The position numbers and the translations under genes were made by a program. Below, piece after piece: positions 23,373 to 61,551 of a stretch of 64,000 nt of DNA. Location of the stretch: assembly GCA_030527545.1 (NCBI GenBank), contig JAUNAP010000001.1:1-64000 (forward strand), in the 5' to 3' direction. Source of the DNA: Actinomycetaceae bacterium. Lineage in GTDB: Bacteria; Actinomycetota; Actinomycetes; Actinomycetales; Actinomycetaceae. Each line of letters starts with the position of its first letter. The first letter of the stretch is position 1. The notes beneath the pieces were generated by a model. It searched no databases. It was given only the letters and a program-made list of their open reading frames with translations, and was not told the DNA's origin.

Positions 23373-23380
23373 GATGCCAC

Positions 23381-24114: not shown

Positions 24115-24144
24115 AGCGCGGAGACAGCGATGGTGGAGGGACCC

Positions 24145-29411: not shown

Positions 29412-30719
29412 ATGCGGATCGCTGTAGTCGCCATGGGAAAGATCGGCCTGCCTTTGGCCGTGCAGTTCGCCGATGCCGGGCACGAGGTGACCGGTGTGGA
29501 CATCAACGAGTCGACAGTCGCCGCGATCAACGAGGCACGCGAGCCTTTCCCGGGTGAGGCTCACCTGGCTGAAAAGCTGGCGGAACTTGTTCCGGCGGGC
29601 CGGCTGCATGCGACGACCTCCTACGCCGAGGCGATTCCGCGAGCCGACGCGGTCGTCGTCGTCGTTCCACTTTTCGTTAACGACGAGACGTGGGAACCGG
29701 ATTTTGCCTGGATGGACGAGGCGACTCGCAGTCTGGCGACTCATCTGAGTGCCGGTACGCTCGTTTCCTACGAGACAACACTGCCGGTCGGGACGACGCG
29801 AGGCCGTTGGAAGCCTCTTATCGAGGAAATCTCGGGACTGCGCGAGGGCACCGACTTTCATCTCGTCTTTAGCCCGGAGCGCGTTCTCACCGGGAGGGTG
29901 TTCGCCGATTTGCGGCGCTACCCGAAGCTGGTTGGGGGACTGAGCCCAGAGGGTACCGCGCGGGCCGTGGAGTTCTACAACAGCGTGCTCACCTTTGACG
30001 AACGTTCCGATCTGGCGCGCCCCAACGGGGTGTGGGACATGGGTTCTGCGGAAGCGGCCGAGTTGGCGAAGCTTGCCGAGACGACCTATCGCGACGTCAA
30101 CATTGGTTTGGCGAATCAGTTTGCGATCTTTGCGGACAAGGCGGGGATCGATGTTGAGCGCGTCATCGATGCGTGTAACTCCCAACCGTATTCGCATATT
30201 CACCGGCCGGGGATTGCGGTTGGTGGACATTGCATCCCCGTGTATCCGCGGCTGTACCTATCCACCGATCCCGACGCGACGGTCGTGCGTACGGCGCGCC
30301 AGGCCAATATGAAAATGCCAGCCTATGCGGTTGAGCGTGCCGAAGAGATCATGGGCGAGCTGCGCGGTCGGCGCGTAGTTGTGTTGGGGGCGTCATATCG
30401 CGGCGGCGTCAAGGAGACGGCTTTCTCGGGGGTGTTCGCCACCGTCGAGGAGCTTCGCTCGCGCGGCGCGGAGGTCCTCGTGCACGATCCCATGTTTAGC
30501 GACGAGGAGCTGCGTGCCTTTGGGTGGGAGCCCTTTGCGATGGGCGATCCGGCCGAGGTGGGGATCATCCAGGCCGACCATCCGGAGTACCGGTCACTGT
30601 CGCCTCGCGATGTGGCAGGCATTGCACTGCTGGTCGACGGCCGGCGAGTGAGCGACGCGGACACCTGGGCGGGGACGCCGCGTATCGTCATCGGTGGTGG
30701 GCACGCCGACAATACGTAA
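29412..30719 (+). CDS. Nucleotide-sugar 6-dehydrogenase (WbpA/WecC-like)
   Basis: NAD-dependent UDP-sugar dehydrogenase of 435 residues that oxidises C6-OH to a uronic acid in two steps. The N-terminal dinucleotide fold reads AVVAMGKIGLPLAVQFADAG, the central domain has YRDVNIGLANQFA, the catalytic cysteine is in VGGHCIPVYP and the C-terminal UDP-binding domain has GASYRGGVKETAFSG. In this cassette it should act on UDP-GlcNAc or UDP-GlcNAc3NAc to give the uronic acid form. UDP-ManNAc dehydrogenase is an alternative, but no 2-epimerase gene is visible here. Confidence 0.9.
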   Translation: MRIAVVAMGKIGLPLAVQFADAGHEVTGVDINESTVAAINEAREPFPGEAHLAEKLAELVPAGRLHATTSYAEAIPRADAVVVVVPLFVNDETWEPDFAWMDEATRSLATHLSAGTLVSYETTLPVGTTRGRWKPLIEEISGLREGTDFHLVFSPERVLTGRVFADLRRYPKLVGGLSPEGTARAVEFYNSVLTFDERSDLARPNGVWDMGSAEAAELAKLAETTYRDVNIGLANQFAIFADKAGIDVERVIDACNSQPYSHIHRPGIAVGGHCIPVYPRLYLSTDPDATVVRTARQANMKMPAYAVERAEEIMGELRGRRVVVLGASYRGGVKETAFSGVFATVEELRSRGAEVLVHDPMFSDEELRAFGWEPFAMGDPAEVGIIQADHPEYRSLSPRDVAGIALLVDGRRVSDADTWAGTPRIVIGGGHADNT

Positions 30720-37410: not shown

Positions 37411-38451
37411 GTGTCACACGCTCGCCAGTCCGCACGCCTGCCAGAAAACGCGACGATCCGCCGCCCCCTCACCCATCTCCTCGGAGGTGCCGGCCACCTC
37501 ACCCTTACCGACATGGCCACACGCGTGGGTTGTAGCGAGGAATTCGCCGCCTCCTTCTGGCTCGCCATGGGCTTCCCCCACCCTGCGCCCGACGCCACCT
37601 GCTTCACTGACGCAGACGTAGACGCACTCAAAGTGTGGTGGGGGCTTGCCCAAAGCGAACAGATCAGCCCACTCACGCTGGCATCCCTCCTGCGGGCTCA
37701 GTCGCATACGACCGATCGCCTCGTGCTGTGGCAGGTCGAAGCCCTCGTCGATGAGAACGCCCGCCGCTTCGACCTCGACGACACGTCAGCCCGCCTGCTC
37801 ACCTTGGCGAAGATCGACGATCTTCTTGACACGCTGCAGGGTCAGGTTCTCTACGCGTGGCGTCGCCAGATGGCCAACCTTCTCGTCAACACGAACGCCG
37901 AGGTCGCCTGGCGAGGCAGGGACGGCGATGCGGGCGATGCCTATCCGCTCACGCGCACGATGGGTTTCGTCGACATGGTTGCCTACACGAGGCGCGCGGC
38001 CGTGCTGTCCTCGCGCCAGCTCGCCGACCTCGTTCAGCGTTTCGAGCTCACGGCGCGCGACGTCATTTCAGCCAGGGGCGGACGGGTCGTCAAAACGATC
38101 GGCGACGCGATTTTGTGGATCGTCCATGACCTCGACACGGGCGCCGACATCGTGTGCGACCTCATCGAGGCCCTCGAGGCGGAACCGGACATGTTGGCGG
38201 TGCGTGCCTCGCTTGTGTGCGGGCGGGTCGTCTCTCGTTCGGGCGACATCTTCGGTCCCTCCGTCAATCTCGCCTCTAGGCTTGTCGACATAGTTCCGGG
38301 CGGGCAGATCTTTATGGATGCCGCGACCGCGCGAGCGATCGCGGCAATGGAAGACGCCCACAGGTTTACCTGCACCCAGGCTAGACTTGCCGATCTTAAA
38401 GGAATGGGAGAGGTTGAGGCCTGGAGACTCGAGCGCACCTCGCGAAGGTGA
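37411..38451 (+). CDS. Class III adenylate/guanylate cyclase with N-terminal regulatory domain
   Basis: Soluble 346-residue cyclase. Residues 1-155 are helical and resemble the adenylate cyclase regulatory domain of M. tuberculosis Rv1264 (autoinhibitory, pH-responsive there). The catalytic domain has the metal aspartates in GFVDMVAYT and IGDAILW, the substrate-specifying lysine in RVVKTIGDA, and GDIFGPSVNLASRLVD with the transition-state asparagine and arginine. All core residues are present, so it should make cAMP as an active homodimer. GTG start, apparently leaderless. The downstream two-component genes have their own promoter. Confidence 0.9.
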   Translation: MSHARQSARLPENATIRRPLTHLLGGAGHLTLTDMATRVGCSEEFAASFWLAMGFPHPAPDATCFTDADVDALKVWWGLAQSEQISPLTLASLLRAQSHTTDRLVLWQVEALVDENARRFDLDDTSARLLTLAKIDDLLDTLQGQVLYAWRRQMANLLVNTNAEVAWRGRDGDAGDAYPLTRTMGFVDMVAYTRRAAVLSSRQLADLVQRFELTARDVISARGGRVVKTIGDAILWIVHDLDTGADIVCDLIEALEAEPDMLAVRASLVCGRVVSRSGDIFGPSVNLASRLVDIVPGGQIFMDAATARAIAAMEDAHRFTCTQARLADLKGMGEVEAWRLERTSRR

Positions 38452-42769: not shown

Positions 42770-43756
42770 ATGAGCATTCTCGTTGCAGGCGGCGCCGGCT
42801 ATATTGGCGCCCACGTTGTTCGACTCCTGGAAGAACGCGGGGAGCGTGTGGTTGTCGTCGACGACCTGTCCTACGGCAGCGCCGATCGGATCGGCAACGC
42901 CACGCTCGTCGAGCTCGACATCGCCTCAGCGAACGCGCGTCGGCGCCTCGTCAACACGATGATCGACGAGGACGTCACAGCGGTCATCCACTTTGCCGCC
43001 CGCAAGCAAGTGGGCGAATCTGTGGATAAGCCGATGTGGTATTACCAGCAAAACATCGGCGGCCTGGCCAACATGCTCGAGGCCATGCGTGACGCAGGTG
43101 TGAGGCGGATGATCTTCTCCTCCTCGGCTGCCGTCTACGGGATGCCGCCGGTTGAGGTCGTCCCCGAGGACTGCGTGAAGAGCCCGATCAACCCTTATGG
43201 AGAGACCAAGCTCATCGGCGAGTGGATGATGGCGGATTGTGAACGCGCCTGGGGACTGAGGTGGATCGGTCTGCGCTACTTCAATGTTGCGGGCGCAGGC
43301 TGGGACGACCTCGGCGATCCGGCGTGCCTCAACCTCATCCCCATGGTGTTGGAGAAGCTGGCCGCGGGGCAGTCACCCAAGATTTTTGGCACGGACTACG
43401 AGACCCCGGATGGCACGTGCATCCGCGACTATATCCACGTCGGTGATCTCGCCGAGGCTCATCTTGCCGCCCTCGATTACATCGACGGCGAGAACGAGGT
43501 TGACGAGCACGTATTCAACGTGGGAACGGGCACAGGCACCTCGGTACGCGAGATCGTCGATGGCCTCGCCGAGGTGACCGGAATCGATTTTGAGGCCGAG
43601 GAGGAGGACCGCCGCGCCGGGGATCCGCCAAAGCTCATCGGCGACGCCACGAAAATCACATCGGTGCTCGGCTGGCATGCGCGCTACGGAGTCAAGGAGA
43701 TCCTCGAATCTGCCTGGTCCGGCTGGCAGGCGGGTCCACGCAGGATTGACCTGTAA
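42770..43756 (+). CDS. galE: UDP-glucose 4-epimerase
   Basis: Short-chain dehydrogenase-type epimerase of 328 residues that interconverts UDP-glucose and UDP-galactose with bound NAD. The Rossmann turn is VAGGAGYIGAHVVRLLEERG, the catalytic serine is in IFSSSAAVYG and the Tyr-Lys pair in INPYGETKLIGE. The ATG at 42770 follows GAGGAAGG; the earlier in-frame start at 42752 adds six non-family residues. Its product is the precursor for the UDP-galactofuranose made by Glf at 53.9 kb, so it likely serves envelope polysaccharide as well as galactose use. Confidence 0.95.
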   Translation: MSILVAGGAGYIGAHVVRLLEERGERVVVVDDLSYGSADRIGNATLVELDIASANARRRLVNTMIDEDVTAVIHFAARKQVGESVDKPMWYYQQNIGGLANMLEAMRDAGVRRMIFSSSAAVYGMPPVEVVPEDCVKSPINPYGETKLIGEWMMADCERAWGLRWIGLRYFNVAGAGWDDLGDPACLNLIPMVLEKLAAGQSPKIFGTDYETPDGTCIRDYIHVGDLAEAHLAALDYIDGENEVDEHVFNVGTGTGTSVREIVDGLAEVTGIDFEAEEEDRRAGDPPKLIGDATKITSVLGWHARYGVKEILESAWSGWQAGPRRIDL

Positions 43757-43762
43757 CGCTTC

Positions 43763-43793
43763 GGGGTGCGCATGACGTCGGCGTGCGCACCCC
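43763..43793 (+). terminator. Hairpin after galE
   Basis: GGGGTGCGCA (43763-43772) and TGCGCACCCC (43784-43793) form a perfect 10-bp stem with an 11-nt loop, 7 nt past the galE stop. No T tract follows. It probably separates galE from the glycosyltransferase operon at 43837. Confidence 0.6.
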
Positions 43794-43836
43794 GGTGACG
43801 GTACTGCTCTTGACGTGAACCGAAGGTAGGGCGGCG

Positions 43837-44586
43837 ATGAGACGAGGAAAACCCGAGACGGCGGCGGTCATCATTCCGGCGTGGAACGAGGAAGAAACGA
43901 TTGGCGCCGTCATCGGCGAGGTCTATGCGCAGCCCTATCCCGTGGACGTTCTCGTCGTATCCGATGGGTCGCGCGACCGCACCGCCCGCCTGGCCCGGGA
44001 GGCGGGCGCCCACGTCGTCGAGCTGCCTCTTAATCTTGGGGTGGGCGGGGCGATGCGCGCTGGATACCGCTGGGCCGTCTCGCACGGATACCGTTTGACG
44101 GTCCAGGTCGACGCGGACGGGCAGCACAACCCGGCAGACATCGACAAGCTTGTGCGTGCCCTCGACGGCGCCGATATCGTCATCGGCGCGCGTTTTTCTG
44201 GCGCGGGTGACTATCGGGTGAAGGGGCCGCGGGCCTGGGCAATGAAGCTCTTGTCGTGGACGCTCAAGGTGATCTCGAAGAAGGAGCTGCGGGATACGAC
44301 CTCGGGGTTTCGCGCGGCGGGCCCGCGAGGCACCGCGTTCATGGCCGCGAACTATCCGGCCGAGTACCTCGGCGACACCGTCGAGACCCTCGTCATGGCG
44401 GCTCGCGCTGGGCTCGTCATTGATCAGGTTCCCGTCGCCATGCGTTCGCGCCAGGCCGGGGTCGCCTCGCAGTCGCCCCTCAAGCTCGTCACCTCCATGC
44501 TTCGGCTCATGGTTGCCGTGGGGCTGTCTCTCATCCGCAAGCCCTACCCGCTGAGCGAGGCGCGGTGGGACCCGATGAACAGGTAA
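43837..44586 (+). CDS. GT2 polyprenyl-phosphate glycosyltransferase (DPM1/GacI-like)
   Basis: Family 2 glycosyltransferase of 249 residues without convincing membrane helices. Motifs: VIIPAWNEEETIGAVIGE, VVSDGSRDRT, QVDADGQHNPADI and VIGARFSGAGDY. It is a paralogue in type of the enzyme at 23381, with the same gene order: a DUF2304 gene follows 9 nt downstream. It should charge undecaprenyl phosphate with a sugar that is used outside the membrane. The long tail after residue 190 (SLIRKPYPLSEARWDPMN) differs from the first copy, suggesting a different sugar or acceptor partner. Confidence 0.9.
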   Translation: MRRGKPETAAVIIPAWNEEETIGAVIGEVYAQPYPVDVLVVSDGSRDRTARLAREAGAHVVELPLNLGVGGAMRAGYRWAVSHGYRLTVQVDADGQHNPADIDKLVRALDGADIVIGARFSGAGDYRVKGPRAWAMKLLSWTLKVISKKELRDTTSGFRAAGPRGTAFMAANYPAEYLGDTVETLVMAARAGLVIDQVPVAMRSRQAGVASQSPLKLVTSMLRLMVAVGLSLIRKPYPLSEARWDPMNR

Positions 44587-44595
44587 AGGAAAACC

Positions 44596-44967
44596 ATGCC
44601 CGTAAACCTCTTGGCCGTCGGCTGCGTCCTCCTGTGTTGCGCCTTCATCGTGGGGCTCATGCGGGCTCGTAAACTTCGTGAGCGCTACGCGATCATGTGG
44701 TTCGTGCTCGGCCTCGTCCTCTTCTTCCTGGCTCTCTTTCCTCGTGTTCTTGTCTATCTCGCAGAGGCGACGGGCTTCGAGCTGCCCTCCAATTTCGTTT
44801 TCTTTTGCGCGATCGTCGTCCTTATCGGGGTGAGTTTGCAGCTGAGCAGCGCTCTCGGACACGCTGAGGAGCGGATGCGCACACTCGCTGAGGCGACCGC
44901 CCTCGTCGAAGAACGCGTTCGCGAGCTAGAGACGATGCTTCGCCAGAAGGAGTCTGACGATGCCTAA
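44596..44967 (+). CDS. DUF2304 small membrane protein (GacJ-like)
   Basis: Protein of 123 residues with three helices (NLLAVGCVLLCCAFIVGLM, IMWFVLGLVLFFLALFPRVL, FVFFCAIVVLIGVSLQLSSA) and a helical, probably coiled-coil C-terminus (ATALVEERVRELETMLRQKE). The central RYAIMWFVLGL matches DUF2304. Expected to form a complex with the GT2 enzyme encoded directly upstream, as GacJ does with GacI. It overlaps the next acyltransferase gene by 8 nt, so the three genes form one operon. Confidence 0.9.
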   Translation: MPVNLLAVGCVLLCCAFIVGLMRARKLRERYAIMWFVLGLVLFFLALFPRVLVYLAEATGFELPSNFVFFCAIVVLIGVSLQLSSALGHAEERMRTLAEATALVEERVRELETMLRQKESDDA

Positions 44968-46972
44968 ACGCCGCAACGACCTTCAGGGCCTGAGGGCACT
45001 GTGCATCATCGAGATTCTCATTTTCCACGCGTGGGGTCTGGGAACCCCGGTCGGGGTTGACGTTTTCGTCATGCTCTCGGCCTACCTGCTTGCGGCCAGT
45101 TATCGCCGCGGCGTCGACCGTGGAACGCCCCAACGACTCCTCGATCGGTGGTTGCACAGCTTCAAGCGGCTCCTCCCACCACTCGTGATCACCGTCGTCG
45201 TCACGCTCGGCCTGTGCGCCCTCTACCTGCCGCCGACGCGGTGGCGCGAATCGGTCAATCAGGCGCTCGCCTCGGTCGGTTTTGTCCAAAACATCTATCT
45301 GGGGCGGGCGGCGGTCGACTACTACGCCGACGCGGGGGCCACGACGTCGCCCTTCATGCACCTGTGGTACATCGCCATGCAGGGGCAGGTCCTTCTACTT
45401 CTGCCCCTGGCGCTCGCCGTGGCGGCGTGGCTGACGCGCACTAGGCGAGCGGCCTTCCCCTACGTCGCCGCGGCTATTCTGGGCGTCGTCGCGATTGCTT
45501 CGTTCGCGTGGACGCTCACAAAGGTCAGTGAGGTCGGCGCCTCAGGGATCTACTTCGACCCGCGAGCCCGGGCCTGGGAGTTCGCCATCGGAGCGATGGT
45601 CGGGCTCGTCGGGCACCGGTTGCGCATGCCAGCGCCGCTAGAGGCTGTCGCCGGCTGGGTGGCCCTCCTTACCCTCACCGTCTTTGCCGCCGTGACCGTG
45701 CGCGACTATCCGGGACCGCTGGCCCTCATCACCGTCGCTGCATCGCTGGGGGTCCTCGTGTGGTCTCCCACGCTCGCCTGGGCACCGACACGAGTGCTGT
45801 CGTTAAGGCCGCTCGTGTGGATCGGCGATATCTCCTACTGTCTCTACCTCGTTCACTGGCCGGTGCTTGCCATCTACCAGTCAGCCCGCGGAATCGAACA
45901 CCCGGGTTGGGTGGAGGGCCTCCTCCTCCTTGGAGTTTCGGTGGCTCTCGCTCACACGCTCACGGATCTCGTCGACACCCCACTCAGAGCGTGGCCCTGG
46001 ACGAACCGCTCCCTGGCGACGAAGGCCGTCGTCGTAGCCGCCTGCTTTGCCCTCGGCTTCGGGGTGTGCGGGTCTGGGCTCTATCTGCTCGATCGTCGGC
46101 AGGCCGCGCAGGCCGCCAACGAGCGGAATCTGGACGAGCACCCCGGCGCGCTCGCAGCGCAGGCGACCTGGCAGACCCGCTCCTACACGACGCCGGCCAT
46201 ACCCCAGCCGGAACGCCTCGACGGCGAGTGGGGAACGCTCCCGCACACGTGCTCAGGGAGATTCGCCACGCACCACGACACGTCGAAGGCGACCGCTGCA
46301 CAGTGCGTCCAGCTGCCGTGGCGCGACGACGCGACCCGCACCGTCGTCGCGCTTGGCGATTCCCACATGGAGCAATACATCGAGACCATCGAACCCCTCG
46401 CGCGTTCGAAACGGTGGAACCTCGCTTTACAGATGTATGGCGCCTGCCAATACAACCTTCCCGAGCATTCGCCGCAAACACCCGGGTGCGCCGAACACAA
46501 CGCCTACCTAGAATCGTGGGTGCTCAACGACGTCAAGCCGGACGTCGTCATCCTCGTGTCCACGCGTGCGCGGGTCGGCGGGGTAGACGAGGAGTTCACC
46601 GGACTCGACGAGGCCGTCGCGCGCTTTACCGACGCGGGGATCCGGGTCGTCGGTTTGCGCGACAATCCCCAATACGAGGACTCCATGTACGACTGCGCGC
46701 TGGCGCAGGGTGTCTCATCAGGGGATCGTGCGGGCTGCGAACGGCCCGCCGCTGACGTCTTGAGTCCGCACATGCCCGACGATTCGCTTCGGACAAACTC
46801 CCTCTACCGCGGTATCGACACGGGAGCGGTCATCTGCCCAGATGGCACGTGCTGGTCGATCGTGGGCAATGTTTTCGTTTGGCGCGATCACGATCATCTC
46901 ACGACGAGCTACGCCACCTCGCTCGCGAAGGTCCTCGGCGGCGAGATCGTCGCGGCCGTGGAGGGACACTGA
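44960..46972 (+). CDS. OatA-like acyltransferase (acyltransferase 3 plus SGNH domain)
   Basis: Integral membrane O-acetyltransferase of 670 residues. The N-terminal 380 residues form the ten-helix acyltransferase 3 domain; LQGLRALCIIEILIFHAWG holds the conserved R and H and GVDVFVMLSAYLL the family motif (usually FFVLSGY). After a linker, the extracytoplasmic SGNH domain (about 440-670) has the catalytic serine in VVALGDSHMEQ and the Asp-His pair in WRDHDHLTTSY. It probably acetylates a surface glycan or peptidoglycan using acetyl groups carried across the membrane. It belongs to the GT2 - DUF2304 operon, so the decorated glycan is the likely target. Confidence 0.9.
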   Translation: MPKRRNDLQGLRALCIIEILIFHAWGLGTPVGVDVFVMLSAYLLAASYRRGVDRGTPQRLLDRWLHSFKRLLPPLVITVVVTLGLCALYLPPTRWRESVNQALASVGFVQNIYLGRAAVDYYADAGATTSPFMHLWYIAMQGQVLLLLPLALAVAAWLTRTRRAAFPYVAAAILGVVAIASFAWTLTKVSEVGASGIYFDPRARAWEFAIGAMVGLVGHRLRMPAPLEAVAGWVALLTLTVFAAVTVRDYPGPLALITVAASLGVLVWSPTLAWAPTRVLSLRPLVWIGDISYCLYLVHWPVLAIYQSARGIEHPGWVEGLLLLGVSVALAHTLTDLVDTPLRAWPWTNRSLATKAVVVAACFALGFGVCGSGLYLLDRRQAAQAANERNLDEHPGALAAQATWQTRSYTTPAIPQPERLDGEWGTLPHTCSGRFATHHDTSKATAAQCVQLPWRDDATRTVVALGDSHMEQYIETIEPLARSKRWNLALQMYGACQYNLPEHSPQTPGCAEHNAYLESWVLNDVKPDVVILVSTRARVGGVDEEFTGLDEAVARFTDAGIRVVGLRDNPQYEDSMYDCALAQGVSSGDRAGCERPAADVLSPHMPDDSLRTNSLYRGIDTGAVICPDGTCWSIVGNVFVWRDHDHLTTSYATSLAKVLGGEIVAAVEGH

Positions 46973-46990
46973 GACCTCGATGGGTTCGGC

Positions 46991-48895
46991 CTAACGCTGA
47001 TCGCACAGGGTGAGTTTGACGAGTCTGGCCTCGCCGACCCTGTCGACGACTCTCGCCTGACCTGACTCGACGAGACGATGCAGGGACGGGACCGTATCGG
47101 GGTGATTCCACACGTTTGTCTTGTTGTCGAAGACGAGGGCCCACCGCGTGCGCGTGCGCGCGAGGAAGGGGCATAGGTCGCGTCCCTTGGGGGTGCCCAG
47201 GTCTGTCGCGATAGCCGGGGCCTCGGCGAAGTCGTAGCGTTCGAAATGCGGGAAAAGCGTCTCGCGGCCGCTGACGGACCATACGAAGGAGCTGCCGGTA
47301 TAGGGCGAGGTGATGATCCTGTCTCCTGCAGGGACGTGACGGGCGACGCGATGGAGGAGGCCGCGTTCGGAGGCAGACAGCACGTCGTCGCCGACCATGT
47401 TGGCCTCAAACTCGGCATATTGGGCGCCGAAGGCGGGATTGAGCTGGGCCAGCAGGGCAAGGCCCGCGCAGGTCGCGATAATGGCGGATCCGTGTTGGCG
47501 GGCCCTGGGAAGTCGCTCGAGTAGCGCCGCGATCCCAGACGCGAGCGCGAGGAGGCCGCACAGTCCGAGCCCGGCGAGGAGGCGTTGCCCGTCGCAATAG
47601 AAATAACCGACGATATAGCCGCGCAAGGGATGGCCCACTCCGACGTACAAAACGTAGCCGAACACGAGGAAGAGGTGTGCCGCAACGAGCCACCTGAGAT
47701 CGCGGTGGACGAGGGCTGCCAGGAGACCGACGCCGATGACGAGGCCGACCGCGGCGAGGGCTACCGGCGTCGTCTGGTGCGCCAGTTGAGAGAAAGTGAA
47801 GGCGGAAACAAAGCCCTCCACTGGCGACATCGTCGGAGGCCAAATCGCGGTGAAAAAACGCATGGAGGAGATGGAATGCGCTCGGTTGATGAGCCAGTAG
47901 GCGGCTACGAGGCCAAGCGTCGTCCCCGCTACCCCTGCGATCAGTCCGAACCAGCGGCGGCGCTTCCAACACGCTCGGGCGACGACATCGTAGATGAGGG
48001 GCACGGCGAAGAAACCGAGCAGAAAAATGGCGTTGGGATGGGCCAAAGCGACGCCGACGACAGCGACGACACCGAGGGCTGCGAGACCGGGCGTGAGCGG
48101 CAGTCGTCCCCGCAACCAGGCATAGGCAACGCCGAGTACCCCGGTCGCGGCGGCGTAGCCGAGCAGGTTGGGGTAGAGGATCCCCCAGATAAGAAAGAAA
48201 TGGTAGGGAAAGAGGGGACACGCGAGGGCGAGGGCTGCGGCAAGAGGCATGGCGTAGCGGGCGCGCGGGGCGAAGAGGCGACAGCAAGCGACGAACGTGA
48301 CGGGCCACGCGAGAAGTACGAGGCCCAAACAAAGCGCCGACGTGGCTCCGCCGATCGACCAGCCTCCGGCTATAGCGACGAGGTCATGCCATGCGAGAGG
48401 GTAAAACTCCCAGGCGTGCGGGTCGATGATACTGCCGTGGAGCGAGGAGGCCTCACCGTAGGTGAGGATCCTGGCAACCATGTTTTGGTGGAAGAGATTG
48501 TCGTAGAGCGTGAGATAGTTCCCGGGTTTGCCCGTCGCCGCCAGGATACGCGCGGCGACGACGAGGCCAACGAGGGCTGCGATGACCACCGATGCGCGGC
48601 GCACCCGCTTGTCCACCGAGACTGCGTGGGCGTCGGTGAGCGGGCGGCGCGACACGAGGCGCAGGCCCGCGCTAAAGGCGAGTGCGAGCGCGACGCAGGC
48701 CGCCACGGTCACCGGAGAGTAGCGCACCCCGACCACGCTCGTAACGATTGCTCCACCGGCGATAATCCCGATGCTTACGGGCAGAGCGAGAGCCCAGGCG
48801 ATGAGGCGATCGCAGCGCAGAATTCTCGCGCACGCGTAGCCTGGACCAAGAAGGAGCACCCCAAAGAGAAAAGCACAAGCGACGAGAAGACCCAT
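46991..48895 (-). CDS. DUF6541 multi-membrane protein (candidate GT-C glycosyltransferase)
   Basis: Membrane protein of 634 residues with about 12-14 helices and a soluble C-terminal domain of about 150 residues. DUF6541-type motifs are YDNLFHQNMVARI in the first large loop and EFYPLAWHDLVAI, with LIWGILYPNLLGYAAATGVL later and a C-terminal SPYTGSSFV...LFPHF. The early acidic loop plus many helices resembles GT-C enzymes that use polyprenyl-phosphate sugars outside the membrane. The ATG has an AGGAG Shine-Dalgarno. It is last in the LCP - LCP - GtrA - DUF6541 operon. A paralogue is at 56668. Function not established. Confidence 0.82.
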   Translation of the reverse strand: MGLLVACAFLFGVLLLGPGYACARILRCDRLIAWALALPVSIGIIAGGAIVTSVVGVRYSPVTVAACVALALAFSAGLRLVSRRPLTDAHAVSVDKRVRRASVVIAALVGLVVAARILAATGKPGNYLTLYDNLFHQNMVARILTYGEASSLHGSIIDPHAWEFYPLAWHDLVAIAGGWSIGGATSALCLGLVLLAWPVTFVACCRLFAPRARYAMPLAAALALACPLFPYHFFLIWGILYPNLLGYAAATGVLGVAYAWLRGRLPLTPGLAALGVVAVVGVALAHPNAIFLLGFFAVPLIYDVVARACWKRRRWFGLIAGVAGTTLGLVAAYWLINRAHSISSMRFFTAIWPPTMSPVEGFVSAFTFSQLAHQTTPVALAAVGLVIGVGLLAALVHRDLRWLVAAHLFLVFGYVLYVGVGHPLRGYIVGYFYCDGQRLLAGLGLCGLLALASGIAALLERLPRARQHGSAIIATCAGLALLAQLNPAFGAQYAEFEANMVGDDVLSASERGLLHRVARHVPAGDRIITSPYTGSSFVWSVSGRETLFPHFERYDFAEAPAIATDLGTPKGRDLCPFLARTRTRWALVFDNKTNVWNHPDTVPSLHRLVESGQARVVDRVGEARLVKLTLCDQR

Positions 48896-48897
48896 GT

Positions 48898-49305
48898 TTA
48901 CTCCTGTCGTCCCGACGCGTAGACCCACCGCTGCATGAGAGGAAAGTTCCACGCGGTTGTCATCACAGTCGCGACGACCTTACCGAGAAGATAAAGCCCC
49001 CACACGTCGTCGAAAATCTGAACAATGAACGCCGTGACGCAGGTGTTGGCAGCGAGGAGGACGAGGTAGCGCACGATCGAGCTGGCGAATCTGCCGGAGT
49101 GGGAGAACGTCACGTACTTTTGCCCGAGGTAGGACAGCGCCGTCGAGACGATGAAGGCGACGGCCGCCGCCAGCCACGCGGGCGCCCCCACGAGGGTTTT
49201 CAACGCGGCGAGGAGACCGAAGTCGACCGCGAAGGCGGCGATCCCGCATGCCAGGTAGCGCGCGATGCGGCTGAGCGGCAGTCTGGAGAGCCTGGACGTC
49301 GACAC
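48898..49305 (-). CDS. GtrA-family membrane protein (putative lipid-linked sugar flippase)
   Basis: Protein of 135 residues with four helices: RYLACGIAAFAVDFGLLAAL, AVAFIVSTALSYLGQKYVTF (GtrA signature), RYLVLLAANTCVTAFIVQIF and YLLGKVVATVMTTAWNFPLM. It is thought to move undecaprenyl-phosphate sugars to the outer face. It sits 2 nt upstream of the DUF6541 gene and 3 nt downstream of the second LCP gene, so it is cotranscribed with a likely user and with cell-wall ligases. The GTG start is the first in frame. Confidence 0.9.
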   Translation of the reverse strand: MSTSRLSRLPLSRIARYLACGIAAFAVDFGLLAALKTLVGAPAWLAAAVAFIVSTALSYLGQKYVTFSHSGRFASSIVRYLVLLAANTCVTAFIVQIFDDVWGLYLLGKVVATVMTTAWNFPLMQRWVYASGRQE

Positions 49306-49308
49306 GAC

Positions 49309-50622
49309 CTAGCCCGCTGGGTGGTAGTAGAGCGAGGGATCGAGGGTTCCGTCGCGGAAGGCCTGCCAAAAGCCGGGTGCCTTGGCAGGGTCGATCTGCA
49401 CCATGGAACCGTGGACTCCGTCGCGATAGTTGAGTGACGACAGCGGGGGCGCGCCCGTGAGACCCGCAGACTGTGCCTTGCGATAATTCCAGGCGAGGAG
49501 TCCCAAAGACGTCACCCCGGTGTCGGGGTCGGTGAGCAGCGATGTGGCCACCGCTTTGCCGAGGGAGCGCTGAGTCACCGGATTGAGCGCCGAGGAGGGG
49601 CTCAGTGCCGTATTGACGACCTTGTCGATGACCTGACGCTGTCGCTCGGCTCGCCCGATGTCGCCTTTGGGATCCTGGTAGCGCATGCGCGAGAAGGCGA
49701 GTGCCGTCTGCCCGTCGACCGTGTGACACCCGGGGGACCACGTGAGGCCCGACTTGGGGTCGTCGACGGTGAGATCTGAGCACAGTTCGACTCCGCCGAC
49801 GGCGTCGACGATTTTCGTGACCGCACCCATGGACACCTCGACGTAGTGGTCGACCTTCGTGCCGGTCAACTGCTCGACTGTCGCCACGAGCAGTTGGGGT
49901 CCGCCTAGGGAATAGGCGGCATTGAGTTTGTTGAGTCCCTTACCTGGGATCGTGACGGCGGAGTCACGCGGCAAAGACACGATTGAGGCTTGACCGTTGA
50001 CCCGGCGTACGAGCAGGAGCGAGTCGGTCCTCGCGCCCTCGGTGGTCGGGTCGACGATACCGCCGTCCGAGCCGTCTGAACGCCGGTCTGAGCCCGCGAT
50101 CAGCCACGTGGTTCCGCTTGTGGAGGGAGCACCGGAGAGGGCATCGACGTGGCTGATCTGGCCGTTTGCCCACGACAGCAGGTAGGCCGGCCAGGCGAGG
50201 AGGACGAGCAGGAGCACGACGGGAAGGATAAGGGGCCAGCGTCTTCCACGTCGCTTATTCCGTGTCGGAGGGGTCCGTGGCGCCACGGGCGGACGCGACG
50301 TGCGATGCTCGGGCGGTACAGGCGTGGGGCGGGGTGAGCGCGGAGCGAAGGCCGGCGGTGCGGAACGTGGCGCACTCGAGTGGGAAGCGGCACCCTGGCT
50401 CGCCGAAGGTGATCGCGCGGGCCGCGGCGAGGGAGGAAAAGATGGCGGCATTGCCGCCGCGGCGGAGTCGTCGTGGCGCTCTCGCTTGCGCCGAGGGGGG
50501 ATGGAAGGGGGAGCCTCGTCTCGATTGTGCGCCGGGGTGGGACGAAGATTGTCCGACTCGCGGCGGGATGGGCGTTGGCGTGGAGTCGACGGTGGGATCG
50601 ACGGCGGCAATTGTTGAGGCAT
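49309..50622 (-). CDS. LytR-CpsA-Psr (LCP) ligase with long proline-rich N-terminal tail
   Basis: Membrane-anchored LCP phosphotransferase of 437 residues. Residues 1-125 are cytoplasmic, Pro/Arg/Ser-rich, with repeated PPSIPP-type units (PPSIPPS, PPSIPPRRKR, PPSFPPSPR). A single helix follows (PLILPVVLLLVLLAWPAYLL). The LCP domain has LPRDSAVTIPGKG, LVATVEQLTGTKVDHYVEV and the arginine-containing FSRMRYQDPKGDIGRAERQR. LCP enzymes transfer glycans from undecaprenyl pyrophosphate to peptidoglycan. The ATG at 50622 has an AGGAGGG Shine-Dalgarno. It follows another LCP gene by 8 nt. Confidence 0.92.
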   Translation of the reverse strand: MPQQLPPSIPPSTPRQRPSRRESDNLRPTPAHNRDEAPPSIPPRRKRERHDDSAAAAMPPSFPPSPRPARSPSASQGAASHSSAPRSAPPAFAPRSPRPTPVPPEHRTSRPPVAPRTPPTRNKRRGRRWPLILPVVLLLVLLAWPAYLLSWANGQISHVDALSGAPSTSGTTWLIAGSDRRSDGSDGGIVDPTTEGARTDSLLLVRRVNGQASIVSLPRDSAVTIPGKGLNKLNAAYSLGGPQLLVATVEQLTGTKVDHYVEVSMGAVTKIVDAVGGVELCSDLTVDDPKSGLTWSPGCHTVDGQTALAFSRMRYQDPKGDIGRAERQRQVIDKVVNTALSPSSALNPVTQRSLGKAVATSLLTDPDTGVTSLGLLAWNYRKAQSAGLTGAPPLSSLNYRDGVHGSMVQIDPAKAPGFWQAFRDGTLDPSLYYHPAG

Positions 50623-50630
50623 GGACCCTC

Positions 50631-51905
50631 CTAGCCCTTCGGCTCGCACTCGAGGCGGGCTTTTTCAACCGGGTCGACGCTGGGCGCGGTAGCGGACGGC
50701 GTGGGCGTCGAGTGCGAGGGTGCCTGGGAATCGTGCGAGGCGGACTCGGGAGCTCGGGTGGTCTCCTTCGCTTCGGCAGTGGAATCCGGGCCGCTGGTCG
50801 TGAACTCATTCCCCGCAAGGTCCTTCACATCGAGGCCCGCGGGAAGGTCTCGATCATTCTTGAGCGCCTGCCAAAGAGCGGGAGCACGTTCATCGAGGAC
50901 GACCCGATTGAGGTCGGCCGGATCCTGCCCGATCGGGGCGGATAGGAAAAGCATCTTGTGCGGATCGATCCCCTGAAGGGAATACGCCAGTCCCGTCAGC
51001 GTCGAGAGGTTCGACAGCGACGACGAGGTTGTCAGGGACGACAGGCCCGCGCGGGCGAACTTATAGAGCTCGGGTACAGACGTGAGAAGGTTCTTGGACA
51101 GGGCCTCGCGCACCATGACAGAAACGACGTGCTGCTGACGCTTCATGCGCTGGGTGTCGGAGCCGTCTCCGCCCTTCACGCCGTGGCGAACGCGCGCGTA
51201 TTTCAGCGCCATCTGCCCGTCCATCGTGTAGCAGCCCGCGTCGATGTCGAGGTCGACGTGCCAGTCGTTGATGGGGCTGTCGACGTAGACGCGGATCCCG
51301 CCGAGGGCGTCAACCATGGAACGGAAACCGTTGAAGTCGACGAGAACGTAGTCGTCGATGTGCAGGCCCGTCATCTTCTCGACGGTCATGATCGTGCACG
51401 CGATCGCGGCGTCGCGGTTGCCAGCGGATCCGCCATAGGCAAAGGCCCAGTTGAATTGGCCCCGCTGGGCCTGGGTGTGTTTGCCGTTGCCGAGCGGACA
51501 CGAGGGAATGTTGACCATGGTGTCGCGTGCGAGCGAGACGACATTGACGTGTTTTCGATCGCGCGAGATGTGGGCGATCATCGTCGTGTCCGAGCGATCC
51601 GTCTCATCGTCGGTCTGGTCGATGGCGTTACCTTCGCCTTTACGAGTGTCGGTACCCAAAACGAGGATGTTGAGGGCGCGTCCTTCGTAGGAGTCCACCG
51701 GCTTGCGTTCGAGGAGGGCATCGGCGTTCGAGATGTTGACCGATCCTTGCAGGTCGTGAAACGCCAGACCCGCACCCGTGCCGAGGAAGAGGACGACACC
51801 GACGATCGCCGCGCCGAGGCGCCAGGGCCACATCTTGCGCGGAGGGGCGGAGAGGTAGTGCTGTGGCGCCATGCGCGGCCGTTTCGATGAGTGCGCTCGT
51901 GCCAT
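50631..51905 (-). CDS. LytR-CpsA-Psr (LCP) ligase
   Basis: LCP-family enzyme of 424 residues. A short cytoplasmic basic start precedes one helix (WRLGAAIVGVVLFLGTGAGL). The LCP core shows ILVLGTDTRKGEG, SLARDTMVNIPSC, MTVEKMTGLHIDDYVLVDFN and ALKYARVRHGVKGGDGSDTQR with the pyrophosphate-binding arginines. The C-terminal 75 residues are a low-complexity Ser/Thr/Pro linker. It is expected to attach polysaccharide to peptidoglycan on the outside. First gene of the leftward LCP - LCP - GtrA - DUF6541 operon, divergent from a GT2 gene. Confidence 0.94.
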   Translation of the reverse strand: MARAHSSKRPRMAPQHYLSAPPRKMWPWRLGAAIVGVVLFLGTGAGLAFHDLQGSVNISNADALLERKPVDSYEGRALNILVLGTDTRKGEGNAIDQTDDETDRSDTTMIAHISRDRKHVNVVSLARDTMVNIPSCPLGNGKHTQAQRGQFNWAFAYGGSAGNRDAAIACTIMTVEKMTGLHIDDYVLVDFNGFRSMVDALGGIRVYVDSPINDWHVDLDIDAGCYTMDGQMALKYARVRHGVKGGDGSDTQRMKRQQHVVSVMVREALSKNLLTSVPELYKFARAGLSSLTTSSSLSNLSTLTGLAYSLQGIDPHKMLFLSAPIGQDPADLNRVVLDERAPALWQALKNDRDLPAGLDVKDLAGNEFTTSGPDSTAEAKETTRAPESASHDSQAPSHSTPTPSATAPSVDPVEKARLECEPKG

Positions 51906-56667: not shown

Positions 56668-58620
56668 GTGCAGATCCTCCAGTGGCTCCTCGCCGCATGT
56701 GCCCTAGCAATCATTCTCGTGGCACCCGGTTACGCCCTCGCCCGGTGGATGCGTGAGGGCCGAGACGTCGCGCTCGCTCTCGCCCCGGCCATCTCGGTTG
56801 CTCTCATCACCGGCGCGGGGATCGTCTTTTCTTTGGCCGGTATCTCGTGGTGGCCGCCGACGGTCGTTGGCGGCCTCGCGGCGGTGACTTGCTTCGCCGG
56901 ATGGCGGGCGCGCCGGCGGGCGCGGGCCCGGGCGCGCTTGACGTGCCCGGCGTGGGCTGTTGGCGCCTGGGGAGGAGGCGCGCTCGCTAGCATCGTCATG
57001 CTCGCTGTCTATTGGCGCGGAACGGGAGGGTTCTCGCGTTTTCCGCAGACATACGATGCGCCTTTCCATTTCAACTCGATCGTGAGGATCGTGGAGACCG
57101 GGGACGCGTCGATTCTCCATATGGGACGCCTTGTTGGCGGTGGCTACTATCCCGGTGGGTGGCACGACGTCGTCAGCCTCGTCGCCTACTACCTTCCCGC
57201 TATGGAGGCAACCCACGTCGCCGTCGTCGTTGTTTTCGCTCTCACTGCCTGCGCGAGTGCGATTACGGCGCACAGGCTTGTTCCAGGCTCGATCGCCGCG
57301 CCTGCGTGTGCCGCGATCGCGTCGGCCTGCTTCGCTGCCTTTCCCTACCGCTTGGCCGCCTATGGGACGCTCTATCCGAATCTCTTCGCCTACGTCCTCA
57401 TGGCTGGTGTCGTCGCCCATCTTGTGTCGCTGCCGCCGCGCGTACGCGCCGGAGACGCGGGGCTGCGAGCCTGGATCATGCTCGGCATGGGAGTGTGCGG
57501 AATCGCATGTGCCCATCCCAACGGTGTCTTCGGTTTTCTCTTCTTCCTCGTTCCGGCGCTGGTGGCTATCAGCTTGTCCTGGCTGGGAGCGCAGCGACCG
57601 CGCGGGTGGGACGCCGTTGTCTCGCTCGTGTGGCCCCTCGGCATGCTTGCGGCAGGATACCTCGTCAGCCAGTCGGTGATCGTGCGTTCGGTTGCGACGT
57701 GGGAGCCACGGTTCACGCTCAATGAGTTCTCGTGGGGAAAACTGCTGCTGTCGGTTCTCACCGATACTCAGTTCGCGTGGGAGAGGGGTTACGTTGACAC
57801 AGGATGGTGGCTCGCCGGAGGTGCTGCCATTGGCCTGATTGTCCTCGCTGGGCGCTCGCGCCAGCGCTGGTTCCTTGCCTGTGCAGTCTGCGTTGTCGCT
57901 TTCTTTGCAGTGTCCATGCGCGACGTGCCGGTGCTTCATGCTTTCGCCAAATTGTGGTACTTCGATCAGATACGCATCGGTTCGCTCTCGCCCGTCGCCC
58001 TCGCCCCGCTCGTCGGGATCGGCGTGGGAGCCGTCGCCGACTGGGGGGCGACGCTGGCGGCGCGCCGGTGGACGAGGACGAAACCGATCCTCGCCGTCGC
58101 CCTTGCTGGCGTTATCTTTGCTCTCTTGATTCCGGTGACTGACAAACTACACGTGGGAACCGCCCGCCAAGACATCTTCTATTCCTACTGGATCAGCGAT
58201 CGCATCGGCGAGAACGACAACAGCCTCTACGACACCCATGAGATCGACTTCCAGCGGCGACTCGACGACGTCCTCCCCGACGAATCGCTCGTCCTCGCCA
58301 ACCCCTATACAGGGGCCGTGTCGCTTCCTGCCCTCAGCGACAACAAGGTCGTCTTCCCGCATTTCAACGGCAAGTGGTCCGCCGATGAGCAAACGCTTGG
58401 CGAAAGCTTCAACCGCATCGGCGAGGACCCGCAGGTATGTCAAGCACTCGAGCGTCTCGGTGTCGACTATTTCTACTGGGACCCCCAAATCTTCTGGGTC
58501 GAAAACGGGCTGTACCTGTCCTATCCGGGGCTCGTATACACTCGCGAACTCGAGCCCTATCTGACCCCCGTCGCATCATCGGGAAAGGTTAAAGTGTGGA
58601 GGATCACAGGGTGTCGGTAA
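56668..58620 (+). CDS. DUF6541 multi-membrane protein (candidate GT-C glycosyltransferase)
   Basis: Membrane protein of 650 residues and paralogue of the protein at 46991. It shares QTYDAPFHFNSIVRI, GGYYPGGWHDVVSLV, AAYGTLYPNLFAYVLMAG and the C-terminal ANPYTGAVS...VVFPHFNG. About 12-14 helices precede an extracytoplasmic C-terminal domain of about 150 residues. The GTG start is 3 nt after wzt. The shared acidic loop motif and topology suggest a GT-C enzyme using a polyprenyl-phosphate sugar. Sequence differences from the first copy are large enough to suggest a different donor or acceptor. Confidence 0.82.
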   Translation: MQILQWLLAACALAIILVAPGYALARWMREGRDVALALAPAISVALITGAGIVFSLAGISWWPPTVVGGLAAVTCFAGWRARRRARARARLTCPAWAVGAWGGGALASIVMLAVYWRGTGGFSRFPQTYDAPFHFNSIVRIVETGDASILHMGRLVGGGYYPGGWHDVVSLVAYYLPAMEATHVAVVVVFALTACASAITAHRLVPGSIAAPACAAIASACFAAFPYRLAAYGTLYPNLFAYVLMAGVVAHLVSLPPRVRAGDAGLRAWIMLGMGVCGIACAHPNGVFGFLFFLVPALVAISLSWLGAQRPRGWDAVVSLVWPLGMLAAGYLVSQSVIVRSVATWEPRFTLNEFSWGKLLLSVLTDTQFAWERGYVDTGWWLAGGAAIGLIVLAGRSRQRWFLACAVCVVAFFAVSMRDVPVLHAFAKLWYFDQIRIGSLSPVALAPLVGIGVGAVADWGATLAARRWTRTKPILAVALAGVIFALLIPVTDKLHVGTARQDIFYSYWISDRIGENDNSLYDTHEIDFQRRLDDVLPDESLVLANPYTGAVSLPALSDNKVVFPHFNGKWSADEQTLGESFNRIGEDPQVCQALERLGVDYFYWDPQIFWVENGLYLSYPGLVYTRELEPYLTPVASSGKVKVWRITGCR

Positions 58621-59627
58621 GGCGCGTTTACATCGACTACATCAACGTCTTAGCGATGGTGTTCGTCATCTACCAACACACGAGAATCGCGTTTTACGAT
58701 CCCGTTGCCACACAGACGTATTGGGCCGAAATCGTCGTGTCGTCCGTCGCGGTGTGCGCCGTCCCACTTTTCCTCATGAATTCGGGGGCCAACCTCTTCG
58801 ACTACCTCGACCGCTACGATACGTGGACGTTCTTGCGCAAGCGCGCGCTCAAGATCGTCATTCCTTACCTCGTGTGGACGCAGGTGTATATCGCCGCCGA
58901 ATCGTTGCGGGGCAACATCGACGGCCTCGGCGGATGGTTCGAGGCGACCATCAACCCGGCACGGGTGTGCCCGCCCCTGTGGTACCTCGAAGTGCTCGTA
59001 GGGCTCTACCTGTTCGTGCCTGTGCTCGCCTACGCGCTCCAGGCCCTCGGGGAGGCACGGCGCACCGGTGCGACCTACCTGCTCGTTATCCTCGTCGTCG
59101 GGACGATGCTCCTGCCGCTCGTGAGGGTCCACGACGGAGCGATCCTGGGGCAGCTCAACGTGCCCGCCAGCGGCTACCTCGTGTTCATGGTCGCGGGATA
59201 CCTCCTATCGCGAAGTGAACCGAGCCTTGGCGTGCGCATTGGATCCTACGCGGCGGGCCTGGGCGGGATTGCCGCCTTCATCGTCCTCGGCAGCAAGTAT
59301 TCGCTCGCACATTCACCACTCGGCCCCTTTTTCGTCGGATACCTCACGTTCGGCACGCTCGCTACGTCGGCCGCGATCTTCATCGCCGCACAGCGCGTTC
59401 CCGTCGAGAGGTGGACGCGCGCATCGCGGGTCATTCGTTACCTATCTGGACTTACCTTTGGGATCTATCTCGTCCACTACGGAATCCTCGCGATCTTCCA
59501 GGCGCTACGTCCCATCGGTGGCGCCCTTGACGAGGCCGCCTACACGGCGGCCTGCTGGTGCCTCTCGGCGCTGCTCGTCGCAGGGGCACGCACAATCGGG
59601 CCGGTGCGGCGTTGGATCCTGCCGTAG
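58611..59627 (+). CDS. Acyltransferase 3 family membrane protein
   Basis: Integral membrane acyltransferase of 338 residues with about ten helices, without an SGNH domain. The start VYIDYINVLAMVFVIYQHTR holds the catalytic-type histidine, CAVPLFLMNSGANLF corresponds to the family FF-SG region and VIRYLSGLTFGIYLVHYGIL closes the domain. It resembles WecH-type O-acetyltransferases. The GTG at 58611 is placed by GGAGG (58598-58602) and overlaps the DUF6541 gene by 10 nt. Probably O-acetylates the exported glycan or its lipid-linked precursor. Confidence 0.87.
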   Translation: MSVRRVYIDYINVLAMVFVIYQHTRIAFYDPVATQTYWAEIVVSSVAVCAVPLFLMNSGANLFDYLDRYDTWTFLRKRALKIVIPYLVWTQVYIAAESLRGNIDGLGGWFEATINPARVCPPLWYLEVLVGLYLFVPVLAYALQALGEARRTGATYLLVILVVGTMLLPLVRVHDGAILGQLNVPASGYLVFMVAGYLLSRSEPSLGVRIGSYAAGLGGIAAFIVLGSKYSLAHSPLGPFFVGYLTFGTLATSAAIFIAAQRVPVERWTRASRVIRYLSGLTFGIYLVHYGILAIFQALRPIGGALDEAAYTAACWCLSALLVAGARTIGPVRRWILP

Positions 59628-60588: not shown

Positions 60589-61551
60589 GTGACAGCTGAG
60601 AAGGCTGCCTTCCCCGGCTACACTATTGCCGCCATCGTCCCCGCCTACAACGAAGAGGTCACGATCGCTCAGGTCGTGACCGACCTGCGCGAGGCAGTTC
60701 CGGGAATGCGTGTCTACGTGTTCGACAACGCCTCTAGTGACGAGACATCGGCGAGGGCATTACAGGCCGGGGCGATCGTTCGTCACGTCAAGCGTCCCGG
60801 CAAAGGCAACGTCGTGCGCGAGGCGTTCGCCGACATCGACGCCGACATTTACCTCATGATCGACGGTGACGACACGTACGACGCCTCGTGTGCCCGCGGC
60901 ATGATCGCGCGCCTCATCGACCATAGGCTCGATCACGTGCTTGGTTGCCGCGTCGACAACCCCAACGCCTCCGCCTACCGTCCCGGTCACGCCCAGGGCA
61001 ACCGCGCATTCAATGCGCTCGTTTCCCGGCTCTTCGGCGACTCCGTCACCGACATGCTCTCGGGGTACAGGGTTTTCTCTCGACGTTTCGTCAAGTCCTT
61101 TCCTGCGCTATCACGCGCATTCGAGATCGAAACGGAGCTCACGGTTCACTCGATGGGGCTGCGCGTGAGGCAGGAGGAGTATCCCGTCGGCTTCAAGGAC
61201 CGCCCAGCGGGATCGGAGTCGAAGCTCAACACCTACAGGGACGGAATCGCCATACTTTCCCTCATCAGCAGACTGTTCATCCTCGAACGTCCCGCACTCT
61301 TCTACGGTGTCATCGGCGGCTTCTTGGGTGTCCTCGGCCTCCTCTTGGGGATTCCCGTCGTCGTAGAGTACGCGTATACGGGACTGGTGCCGCGGTTCCC
61401 AACAGCGATCCTCGCGGCCTCACTCGTCACGCTCGCCGTGATCGTGGGCACCTTGGGTACGATCATGGCCGGGCAGCTGCGAGCGCGGCGCGAAGCGACC
61501 CGGATTGCCTATCTTGCCCAACCGTCGCTGCCCGAGATGCTTGGGGTGTAA
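60589..61551 (+). CDS. GT2 polyprenyl-phosphate glycosyltransferase with C-terminal membrane helices (GtrB-like)
   Basis: Transferase of 320 residues. Residues 1-215 are a DPM1-type GT2 domain: AIVPAYNEEVTIAQVVTDL, VFDNASSDETS, MIDGDDTYDA and DMLSGYRVFSRRFVKSFP. Two helices follow (YGVIGGFLGVLGLLLGIPVV and AILAASLVTLAVIVGTLGTI) and a basic tail. This is the GtrB/ArnC-like layout in which the membrane part is fused, unlike the two GT2 - DUF2304 pairs. It should make an undecaprenyl-phosphate sugar and lies 6 nt before the DUF6020 gene, its likely user. Confidence 0.9.
   Translation: MTAEKAAFPGYTIAAIVPAYNEEVTIAQVVTDLREAVPGMRVYVFDNASSDETSARALQAGAIVRHVKRPGKGNVVREAFADIDADIYLMIDGDDTYDASCARGMIARLIDHRLDHVLGCRVDNPNASAYRPGHAQGNRAFNALVSRLFGDSVTDMLSGYRVFSRRFVKSFPALSRAFEIETELTVHSMGLRVRQEEYPVGFKDRPAGSESKLNTYRDGIAILSLISRLFILERPALFYGVIGGFLGVLGLLLGIPVVVEYAYTGLVPRFPTAILAASLVTLAVIVGTLGTIMAGQLRARREATRIAYLAQPSLPEMLGV

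Follow-up and report, generated by a model that had tools for sequence, protein, structure and literature searches.

In the window analysed here, the whole 64,000-nucleotide stretch of the Actinomycetaceae bacterium contig, five genes lie between galE and an LCP ligase gene: GT2b, DUF2304b and an AT3-SGNH acyltransferase gene on the plus strand converge on a GtrA-DUF6541 pair on the minus strand (Table 1). The ORFs and their Pfam domains bear out the GT2, the DUF2304 and the acyltransferase described in the sequence-only reading, together with the 8-nt overlap of the latter two genes, which is exact (44960-44967, from the ORF calls and the sequence read there). The convergent DUF6541 and GtrA genes were overlooked in that reading, as was the joint absence of all five genes from the same site within the genus. 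Co-transcription of galE and GT2b is doubtful, since a strong hairpin separates the two genes (-30 kcal/mol for region 43752-43800, z -3.7 relative to shuffled sequences); a promoter scan found no promoter, and gave 7 terminator-like sites where 4.1 are expected by chance. The nearby genes encode GlfT1-like GT2s, GLF, an ABC transporter and LCPs; genes for a Galf-containing polymer lie at 52-62 kb, several GT2 genes at 52-61.5 kb, and LCP ligases neighbour the block.

Table 1. Features of the five-gene block and its flanks (positions in the window)
Feature	Positions	Strand	Length	Family match and assignment
galE	42770-43756	+		TIGR01179 above cut-off; left flank of block
Hairpin between galE and GT2b	43765-43795 (approximate limits)	+		Strong; no T run
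GT2b	43837-44586	+	249 aa	PF00535 1.1e-21; putative GT-A (GT2) polyprenyl-phosphate-sugar synthase, GacI/GtrB/DPMS-like; no own membrane domain assigned
DUF2304b	44596-44967	+	123 aa	PF10066 1.3e-23; GacJ/WpsB-like small membrane partner; 3 hydrophobic segments and a 57-residue C-terminal helix
AT3-SGNH acyltransferase	44960-46972	+	670 aa	PF01757 3.5e-29 and PF19040 1.8e-19
DUF6541	46991-48895	-		PF20176 8.9e-107; predicted GT-C-fold membrane glycosyltransferase; proposed acceptor transferase
GtrA-family small membrane protein	48898-49305	-		PF04138 1.2e-17; proposed lipid-linked-sugar flippase
LCP ligase gene	49309-50649	-		PF03816; right flank of block; same strand as GtrA-DUF6541, directly before them

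The GT2-DUF2304 unit is of a known kind, in which a small membrane protein accompanies an undecaprenyl-phosphate-sugar synthase, as in GacI/GacJ. Judged by its PF00535 and PF10066 domains and by the PDB relatives of the GT2b sequence profile (sll0501, DPMS and ArnC), GT2b-DUF2304b would be the synthase component of a multi-component transmembrane glycosylation system; the D92-A-D94-G-Q-H stretch of GT2b is invariant in 14 orthologues, save for A93, which is nearly so. The same gene order recurs at 23007-24061 on the minus strand (pair 1), as had been pointed out earlier and as ORFs and Pfam agree. The GT2s of the two pairs are only ~32% identical, and the PpgS profile NF058614 gives 271 bits with pair 1 at 23 kb and only 93 with pair 2, both below the 370-bit equivalog cut-off. 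The pair-1 DUF2304 (23007-23372; 121 aa by the gene caller, against a longest ORF of 159 aa) ends in a Pro/Asp-rich tail, and the predicted structure of the pair-2 protein (mean pLDDT 82) continues beyond the third hydrophobic segment as a single long helix (residues 66-122). The longer coiled-coil end once ascribed to the latter is thus real as a longer helical end, but the overall lengths are about equal (123 and 121 aa); DUF2304b is on the short side of its family (116-180 aa in 75 orthologues).

This arrangement resembles GacI/GacJ(/GacK/GacL) of Streptococcus pyogenes (PMC8327497) and WpsA/WpsB of lactococci (PMC10821137), where, in the excerpts of these papers used here, a soluble-type GT2 is immediately followed by a DUF2304 membrane protein and the wider system includes a GT-C enzyme and a flippase. 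It differs in that the putative flippase belongs to the GtrA type, not to the Wzx type of GacK, the predicted GT-C protein is DUF6541, the acyltransferase gene overlaps the DUF2304 gene, and RmlC is absent from this genome, which is 81% complete. Also similar is PpgS (Rv3631)/Rv3632 of Mycobacterium tuberculosis, a GT2 and a small membrane protein that, according to an excerpt of PMC3485146, synthesise a polyprenyl-phosphate-linked amino sugar used for the arabinogalactan of the wall.

A DUF2304 gene adjoins the GT2 gene in 93/93 fetched orthologous loci (91 distinct records), far beyond chance. L125 and L139, presumed duplicates of L038 and L041, were left out of the locus clustering, the AT3-position count and the GT2b tree, and both members were counted of L107/L111 (one genome) and of the near-identical L040/L140; genes at these loci were called with our own codon model, by which 18 of the 93 anchors were initially missed, and 4 were forced. 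Trees were built from 19 type-a and 14 type-b pairs, 33 in all; in them every DUF2304 groups according to the type of its GT2, and the b clade has a support of 1.000. Identity between the a and b DUF2304s of one genome is ~17%, compared with 38.6% among type-a and 34.4% among type-b proteins. The trees thus agree with the earlier claim of partner-specific pairs as far as two separate, internally consistent pairs are concerned, but what they reveal is co-inheritance rather than functional specificity, since linkage alone would give the same pattern. The related lactococcal WpsA alone produces GlcNAc-P-C55, in a smaller amount (excerpt of PMC10821137); activity of a GT2 in the absence of its DUF2304 is what the sequence-only reading had named as refuting its own claim, which is weakened by this.

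Elsewhere, many GT2b loci sit among Rml genes and GT2s; the rhamnose pathway was considered as a necessary companion of GT2b and rejected, RmlC occurring in 12/14 GT2b genomes versus 26/45 others (p = 0.11, not significant). At most loci outside the window GT2b has no GtrA or AT3 neighbour, DUF6541-family genes are near it at only 33 of the 91 others, and, among the loci compared, all five genes are together in this window only. One genome (G030) has GT2b, DUF2304 and GtrA in tandem, its GtrA homologue (39% identical) standing directly behind GT2b-DUF2304, and this group also adjoins LCP genes.

The acyltransferase exceeds the gathering score of both its domains (PF01757, 102.3 bits against 31; PF19040, 70.8 bits against 27) and retains the SGNH residues G466/S468/H469 and D643/H646, eight cysteines and the AT3 residues H23 and R70; with both domains present and the catalytic residues kept, its sequence places it among the AT3-SGNH acyltransferases. 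No solved structure similar in sequence was found. OatA has only the domain order in common with it, and the surrounding genes suggest a wall polysaccharide as target. The nearest named family is SucT, the succinyltransferase of mycobacterial arabinogalactan/LAM, with which it shares AT3 and SGNH domains over the full length (profile NF058601, 247 bits; other AT3-SGNHs score similarly, 224 and 286), although this is far under the curated equivalog cut-off of 1275 bits. This weakens the suggestion that the transferred residue is O-acetylated.

The tight overlap of the DUF2304 and acyltransferase genes could mean that GT2b, DUF2304b and AT3-SGNH are a functional unit in which the lipid-linked sugar from GT2b is O-acetylated, DUF6541 and GtrA belonging elsewhere. 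An AT3-SGNH gene lies within 10 kb of 6/47 DUF2304 loci, with 0.23 expected, and Streptococcus mutans offers an earlier example of a side-chain sugar decorated in a pair-specific way, since glycerol phosphate is placed there only on the Glc side chains provided by SccN/SccM (excerpt of PMC11754754). We nonetheless consider this improbable. None of the 91 other GT2b loci has an AT3 gene directly behind DUF2304; the closest relatives of the window AT3-SGNH are elsewhere in their genomes, away from any GT2b orthologue, and close relatives sit alone, one of them in a genome of the same genus (G001) that has no GT2b orthologue and from which the five genes are jointly missing; finally, DUF2304 is more strongly linked to DUF6541 than to AT3-SGNH. 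The trio was thus rejected as a conserved unit, and its link to the acyltransferase is not a conserved trait of the pair. We instead favor, as the best explanation of the whole and a likely one, that the three genes form the plus-strand side of a larger five-gene cassette, which DUF6541 and GtrA complete.

DUF6541 scores 358 bits against PF20176 (Pfam gathering 29), and a literature search on this family found no paper. Its AlphaFold2 model (pLDDT 84.5, pTM 0.90) has OST, AftA and DPY19 as top Foldseek matches; with VIA-align, ranks 1-40 among the matches listed are all GT-C proteins or domains (OST/ArnT/AftA; best Z 20.5, rmsd 5.0, 446 aligned), followed by a drop to Z 4.9 and unrelated folds. 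D132 and H136 are invariant in 31/31 sequences. DUF6541 is thus predicted to fold as a GT-C glycosyltransferase and would be the acceptor-transferase component of the glycosylation system, as GtrA, from its PF04138 match, would be the flippase component. Across 59 genomes, DUF6541 and DUF2304 occur together (both in 32, DUF2304 only in 5, DUF6541 only in 1, neither in 21; Fisher 2.4e-10), in a count that omits matches below the curated cut-off (3/50 DUF2304 and 3 DUF6541) and merges split DUF6541 matches in G008, G021, G030 and G048. The two genes are less than 500 nt apart in 6/47 DUF2304 loci (0.10 expected) and less than 5 kb apart in 12/47 (0.39 expected), figures uncorrected for the clustering of polysaccharide genes and for shared ancestry.

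Such a DUF6541 enzyme might also transfer or polymerise a longer product, if the lipid-linked sugar of GT2b started an oligosaccharide which the GT2s encoded nearby extend, much as the GlcNAc-P-C55 from WpsA/WpsB is extended by other enzymes (excerpt of PMC10821137). This seems unlikely to us: the block contains no Wzx-type gene or extending glycosyltransferase, and its GtrA-type protein belongs to a kind associated, in the part of PMC8035078 concerned with these flippases, with single lipid-linked sugars.

This lineage probably acquired the five-gene cassette, at a site between galE and the LCP gene. In G001 the entire stretch is absent and both flanks align, galE and the LCP gene being ~0.1 kb apart; the junction is closed (37-225 nt) in 7/10 loci that have both genes. 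The three open gaps (G003, G009, G033) contain nothing resembling the block but a BCCT transporter, a P-type ATPase, a CoA-binding protein and a disulphide oxidoreductase, then a lactate/malate dehydrogenase, a GDPD and a phosphoesterase, with one of nine proteins having no family; with such unrelated contents, the gap was rejected as a dedicated decoration site. The block might instead be ancestral, and have disappeared from G001 and the other genomes with a closed junction, as the wide distribution of the GT2b and DUF6541 families in actinobacteria and the LCP-adjoining group of G030 would allow. The closed junctions, one of them in the same genus, and the other genes in the open ones make this a doubtful reading, as does the GT2b tree, in which the window sequence falls outside a 22-row clade that holds 9/10 other fetched same-family GT2b rows. 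The same tree leaves the window GT2b on a long branch whose position has no support, which, like the absence of the full five-gene set from the other loci compared, counts against the cassette reading. Recent transfer is not independently marked in the block, because its base composition resembles the surroundings and its ends carry no direct repeats (the sole inverted match is 8 nt).

An inserted unit made of a flippase, a lipid-linked-sugar synthase and a specific membrane transferase is reminiscent of the phage gtrA-gtrB-gtr(type) cassettes of Shigella and Salmonella, which change the surface polysaccharide and so convert the serotype (excerpts of PMC3688519 and PMC3259042). Unlike these, no phage genes were noticed at the block, a DUF2304 and an acyltransferase are added, and the target would be a Gram-positive wall polymer.

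This analysis establishes which genes the block contains, that GT2-DUF2304 pairing is conserved, that DUF6541 has a predicted GT-C fold and is associated with DUF2304, and that relatives have a closed junction; we think it likely that the block is a multi-component transmembrane glycosylation cassette which decorates a wall polysaccharide with a probably acylated sugar. By analogy with their families, DUF2304b would keep GT2b at the membrane and stimulate it, and GT2b would move a sugar from its nucleotide form onto undecaprenyl phosphate inside the cell, perhaps a HexNAc or hexose as with GacI and PpgS. GtrA would flip the lipid-linked sugar and DUF6541 would transfer it, outside the cell, onto the wall polysaccharide. 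The most probable acceptor is the polymer that contains Galf, which the neighbouring LCP ligases would join to peptidoglycan. AT3-SGNH may then add an acetyl or succinyl group to the added sugar or to the backbone.

In other Gram-positives, wall polysaccharides serve as antigens and as receptors for phages. Kits for decorating wall sugars are already known; what appears to distinguish this one is a little-studied transferase and its insertion into the genome as a single block. More tentatively, we suggest that DUF6541 could be the dedicated GT-C acceptor transferase of DUF2304-type synthases across actinobacteria and that a complete synthase-flippase-transferase-acyltransferase set was inserted here as one portable unit beside a galactofuranose-type wall polymer. 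If so, a module that mostly accompanies rhamnose polymers elsewhere would have been transferred to another backbone, and the event would parallel phage serotype conversion, with a wall polymer as its target. The cassette reading, if right, would give DUF6541, an unnamed family, a likely job and, with the same-genus genome that does not have the block as a natural comparison, would offer a simple model, open to testing, for the exchange of side chains and perhaps acyl groups on the wall polysaccharides of actinobacteria.

The GT2 gene of the second GT2-DUF2304 pair (GT2b), its DUF2304 neighbour (DUF2304b) and the acyltransferase gene AT3-SGNH lie where the sequence-only reading placed them; open reading frames and the sequence itself also confirm the 8-nt overlap of the latter two and the GT2-then-DUF2304 order shared with a first pair. 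Directly behind the acyltransferase, convergent with it across an 18-nt gap, stand a DUF6541 gene and a GtrA-family gene, and the unit is larger than the three genes reported. In the same-genus genome G001, both flanks of this block align, window 43738-49399 does not, and protein matches place the left-flanking galE 81 nt from the right-flanking LCP ligase gene. These flanking genes are both visible in 10 of the 20 fetched loci: their junction is closed in seven (37-225 nt; G001, G004, G010, G012, G016, G020, G024) and filled with unrelated genes in three (G003, G009, G033). The block may have been lost elsewhere rather than gained here; the simplest reading is a five-gene gain in the window lineage. 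galE and GT2b are separated by a strong GC hairpin that lacks a T run.

Features of the window
Feature	Position	Strand	Domain evidence
GT2b	43837-44586	+	PF00535 above cut-off
DUF2304b	44596-44967	+	PF10066 above cut-off
AT3-SGNH	44960-46972	+	PF01757 and PF19040 above cut-offs
DUF6541	46991-48895	-	
GtrA family	48898-49305	-	
GC hairpin	43765-43795		
Pair-1 GT2 (GT2a)	23381-24061	-	
Pair-1 DUF2304 (DUF2304a)	23007-23372	-	
Pair 1 and sugar genes	21015-24747, 29412-30719		
Cyclase-domain gene	37411-38451		
Second DUF6541	56668-58620		
Second AT3	58611-59627		
Third possible lipid-linked-sugar synthase	60589-61551		

GT2b and DUF2304 form a conserved pair. Of 58 other genomes, 13 have a GT2b orthologue (scores from 199 bits upwards, the next best match reaching 105), a profile search yielded at least 80 named loci, nearly all actinobacterial, and DUF2304 adjoins GT2b in all 93 fetched loci, by gene calls in 87 (84 downstream, 3 upstream) and by six-frame profile search in six. 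One GT2b locus (L129), from a record named Sporosarcina (Bacillota), is nearly identical to an Arthrobacter one, by contamination, misnaming or transfer. The pairing matches GacI/GacJ and WpsA/WpsB, where a small DUF2304 protein raises GT2 activity (PMC8327497, PMC10821137). Since WpsA by itself still shows activity, though less of it (PMC10821137), the absolute dependence of GT2 on DUF2304 that the earlier reading's refuting condition implies is by analogy unlikely.

The two GT2 proteins are of different types and share about 32% identity; the genome has exactly two DUF2304 matches, and in a set of 33 pairs covering both types each DUF2304 groups, without exception, with those whose GT2 is of the same type. 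Pair 1 and its neighbours are kept in G001 (74% and 59% identity), from which the second pair is missing. Pair 1 adjoins UDP-GlcNAc 3-dehydrogenase-like, DegT aminotransferase, sugar acetyltransferase and nucleotide-sugar dehydrogenase genes, of which the nucleotide-sugar dehydrogenase alone reaches its named-family cut-off. Many relatives keep this group together with pair 1, which suggests that the pair-1 sugar is a 2,3-diacetamido uronic acid and not GalNAc. In much of the family (L156-L170), GT2a-DUF2304a directly precedes two LCP ligase genes, which ties such synthases to wall-linked polymers.

The proposed coupling to an acyltransferase is not conserved, an AT3 gene lying directly behind DUF2304 in none of 91 other loci. 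In 28 of these loci an AT3-domain gene lies no more than 10.5 kb from GT2b, at nearest two genes upstream (L138) or three downstream (L044). AT3-SGNH has its nearest relatives (42% identity in G001; 35-39% in G003, G040, G058 and G046) in loci with almost nothing else in common with the window, and in G058 GT2b and AT3 are on separate contigs. Because AT3-SGNH genes fall within 10 kb of DUF2304 at 6 of 47 loci (0.23 expected), acylation is a loose companion of DUF2304 clusters. The protein retains its likely catalytic residues; its best named relative is SucT, at 247 against 1275 bits, and the acyl group may be acetyl or succinyl.

DUF6541 is predicted by its fold to be a GT-C enzyme. Its model (mean pLDDT 84.5, pTM 0.90; 31 sequences) best matches oligosaccharyltransferases and AftA in Foldseek, and VIA-align ranks 1-40 are all taken by GT-C glycosyltransferases or domains of them (Z 20.5 to 5.3), the first unrelated folds appearing at Z 4.9. 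Two residues just behind the first core helix, D132 and H136, do not vary across the 31 sequences; D132 is the putative position of the GT-C catalytic acid. Across 59 genomes, the co-occurrence of DUF6541 with DUF2304 greatly exceeds chance (32 with both, 5 with DUF2304 only, 1 with DUF6541 only, 21 with neither; p = 2.4e-10), and at 6 of 47 DUF2304 loci a DUF6541 gene stands within 500 nt (0.10 expected); both figures are uncorrected for relatedness and for the general tendency of polysaccharide genes to cluster.

Window 52-62 kb carries GlfT1-like GT2s, UDP-galactopyranose mutase and an ABC-2 transporter pair, adjoined by LCP ligases. Many other GT2b loci are placed among rhamnose genes; RmlC was found neither in the window genome (81% complete) nor in G001 (94% complete). 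Given this setting and the absence of RmlC, the polymer served by the GT2b module here appears to be of the galactofuranose type. The galactofuranose cluster also contains another gene each for DUF6541 and AT3, as well as an AglJ-like gene (201 against 325 bits) that may encode a third lipid-linked-sugar synthase. Upstream of the two-component system near the block is a gene with an adenylate/guanylate cyclase domain.

On the basis of its protein families, predicted fold and gene neighbourhood, the five-gene block would form a complete system for transmembrane glycosylation, to which an acyltransferase has been added. Such systems are a known class (PMC8035078); what sets this block apart is that DUF6541, an acyltransferase and a clean insertion come together in it.
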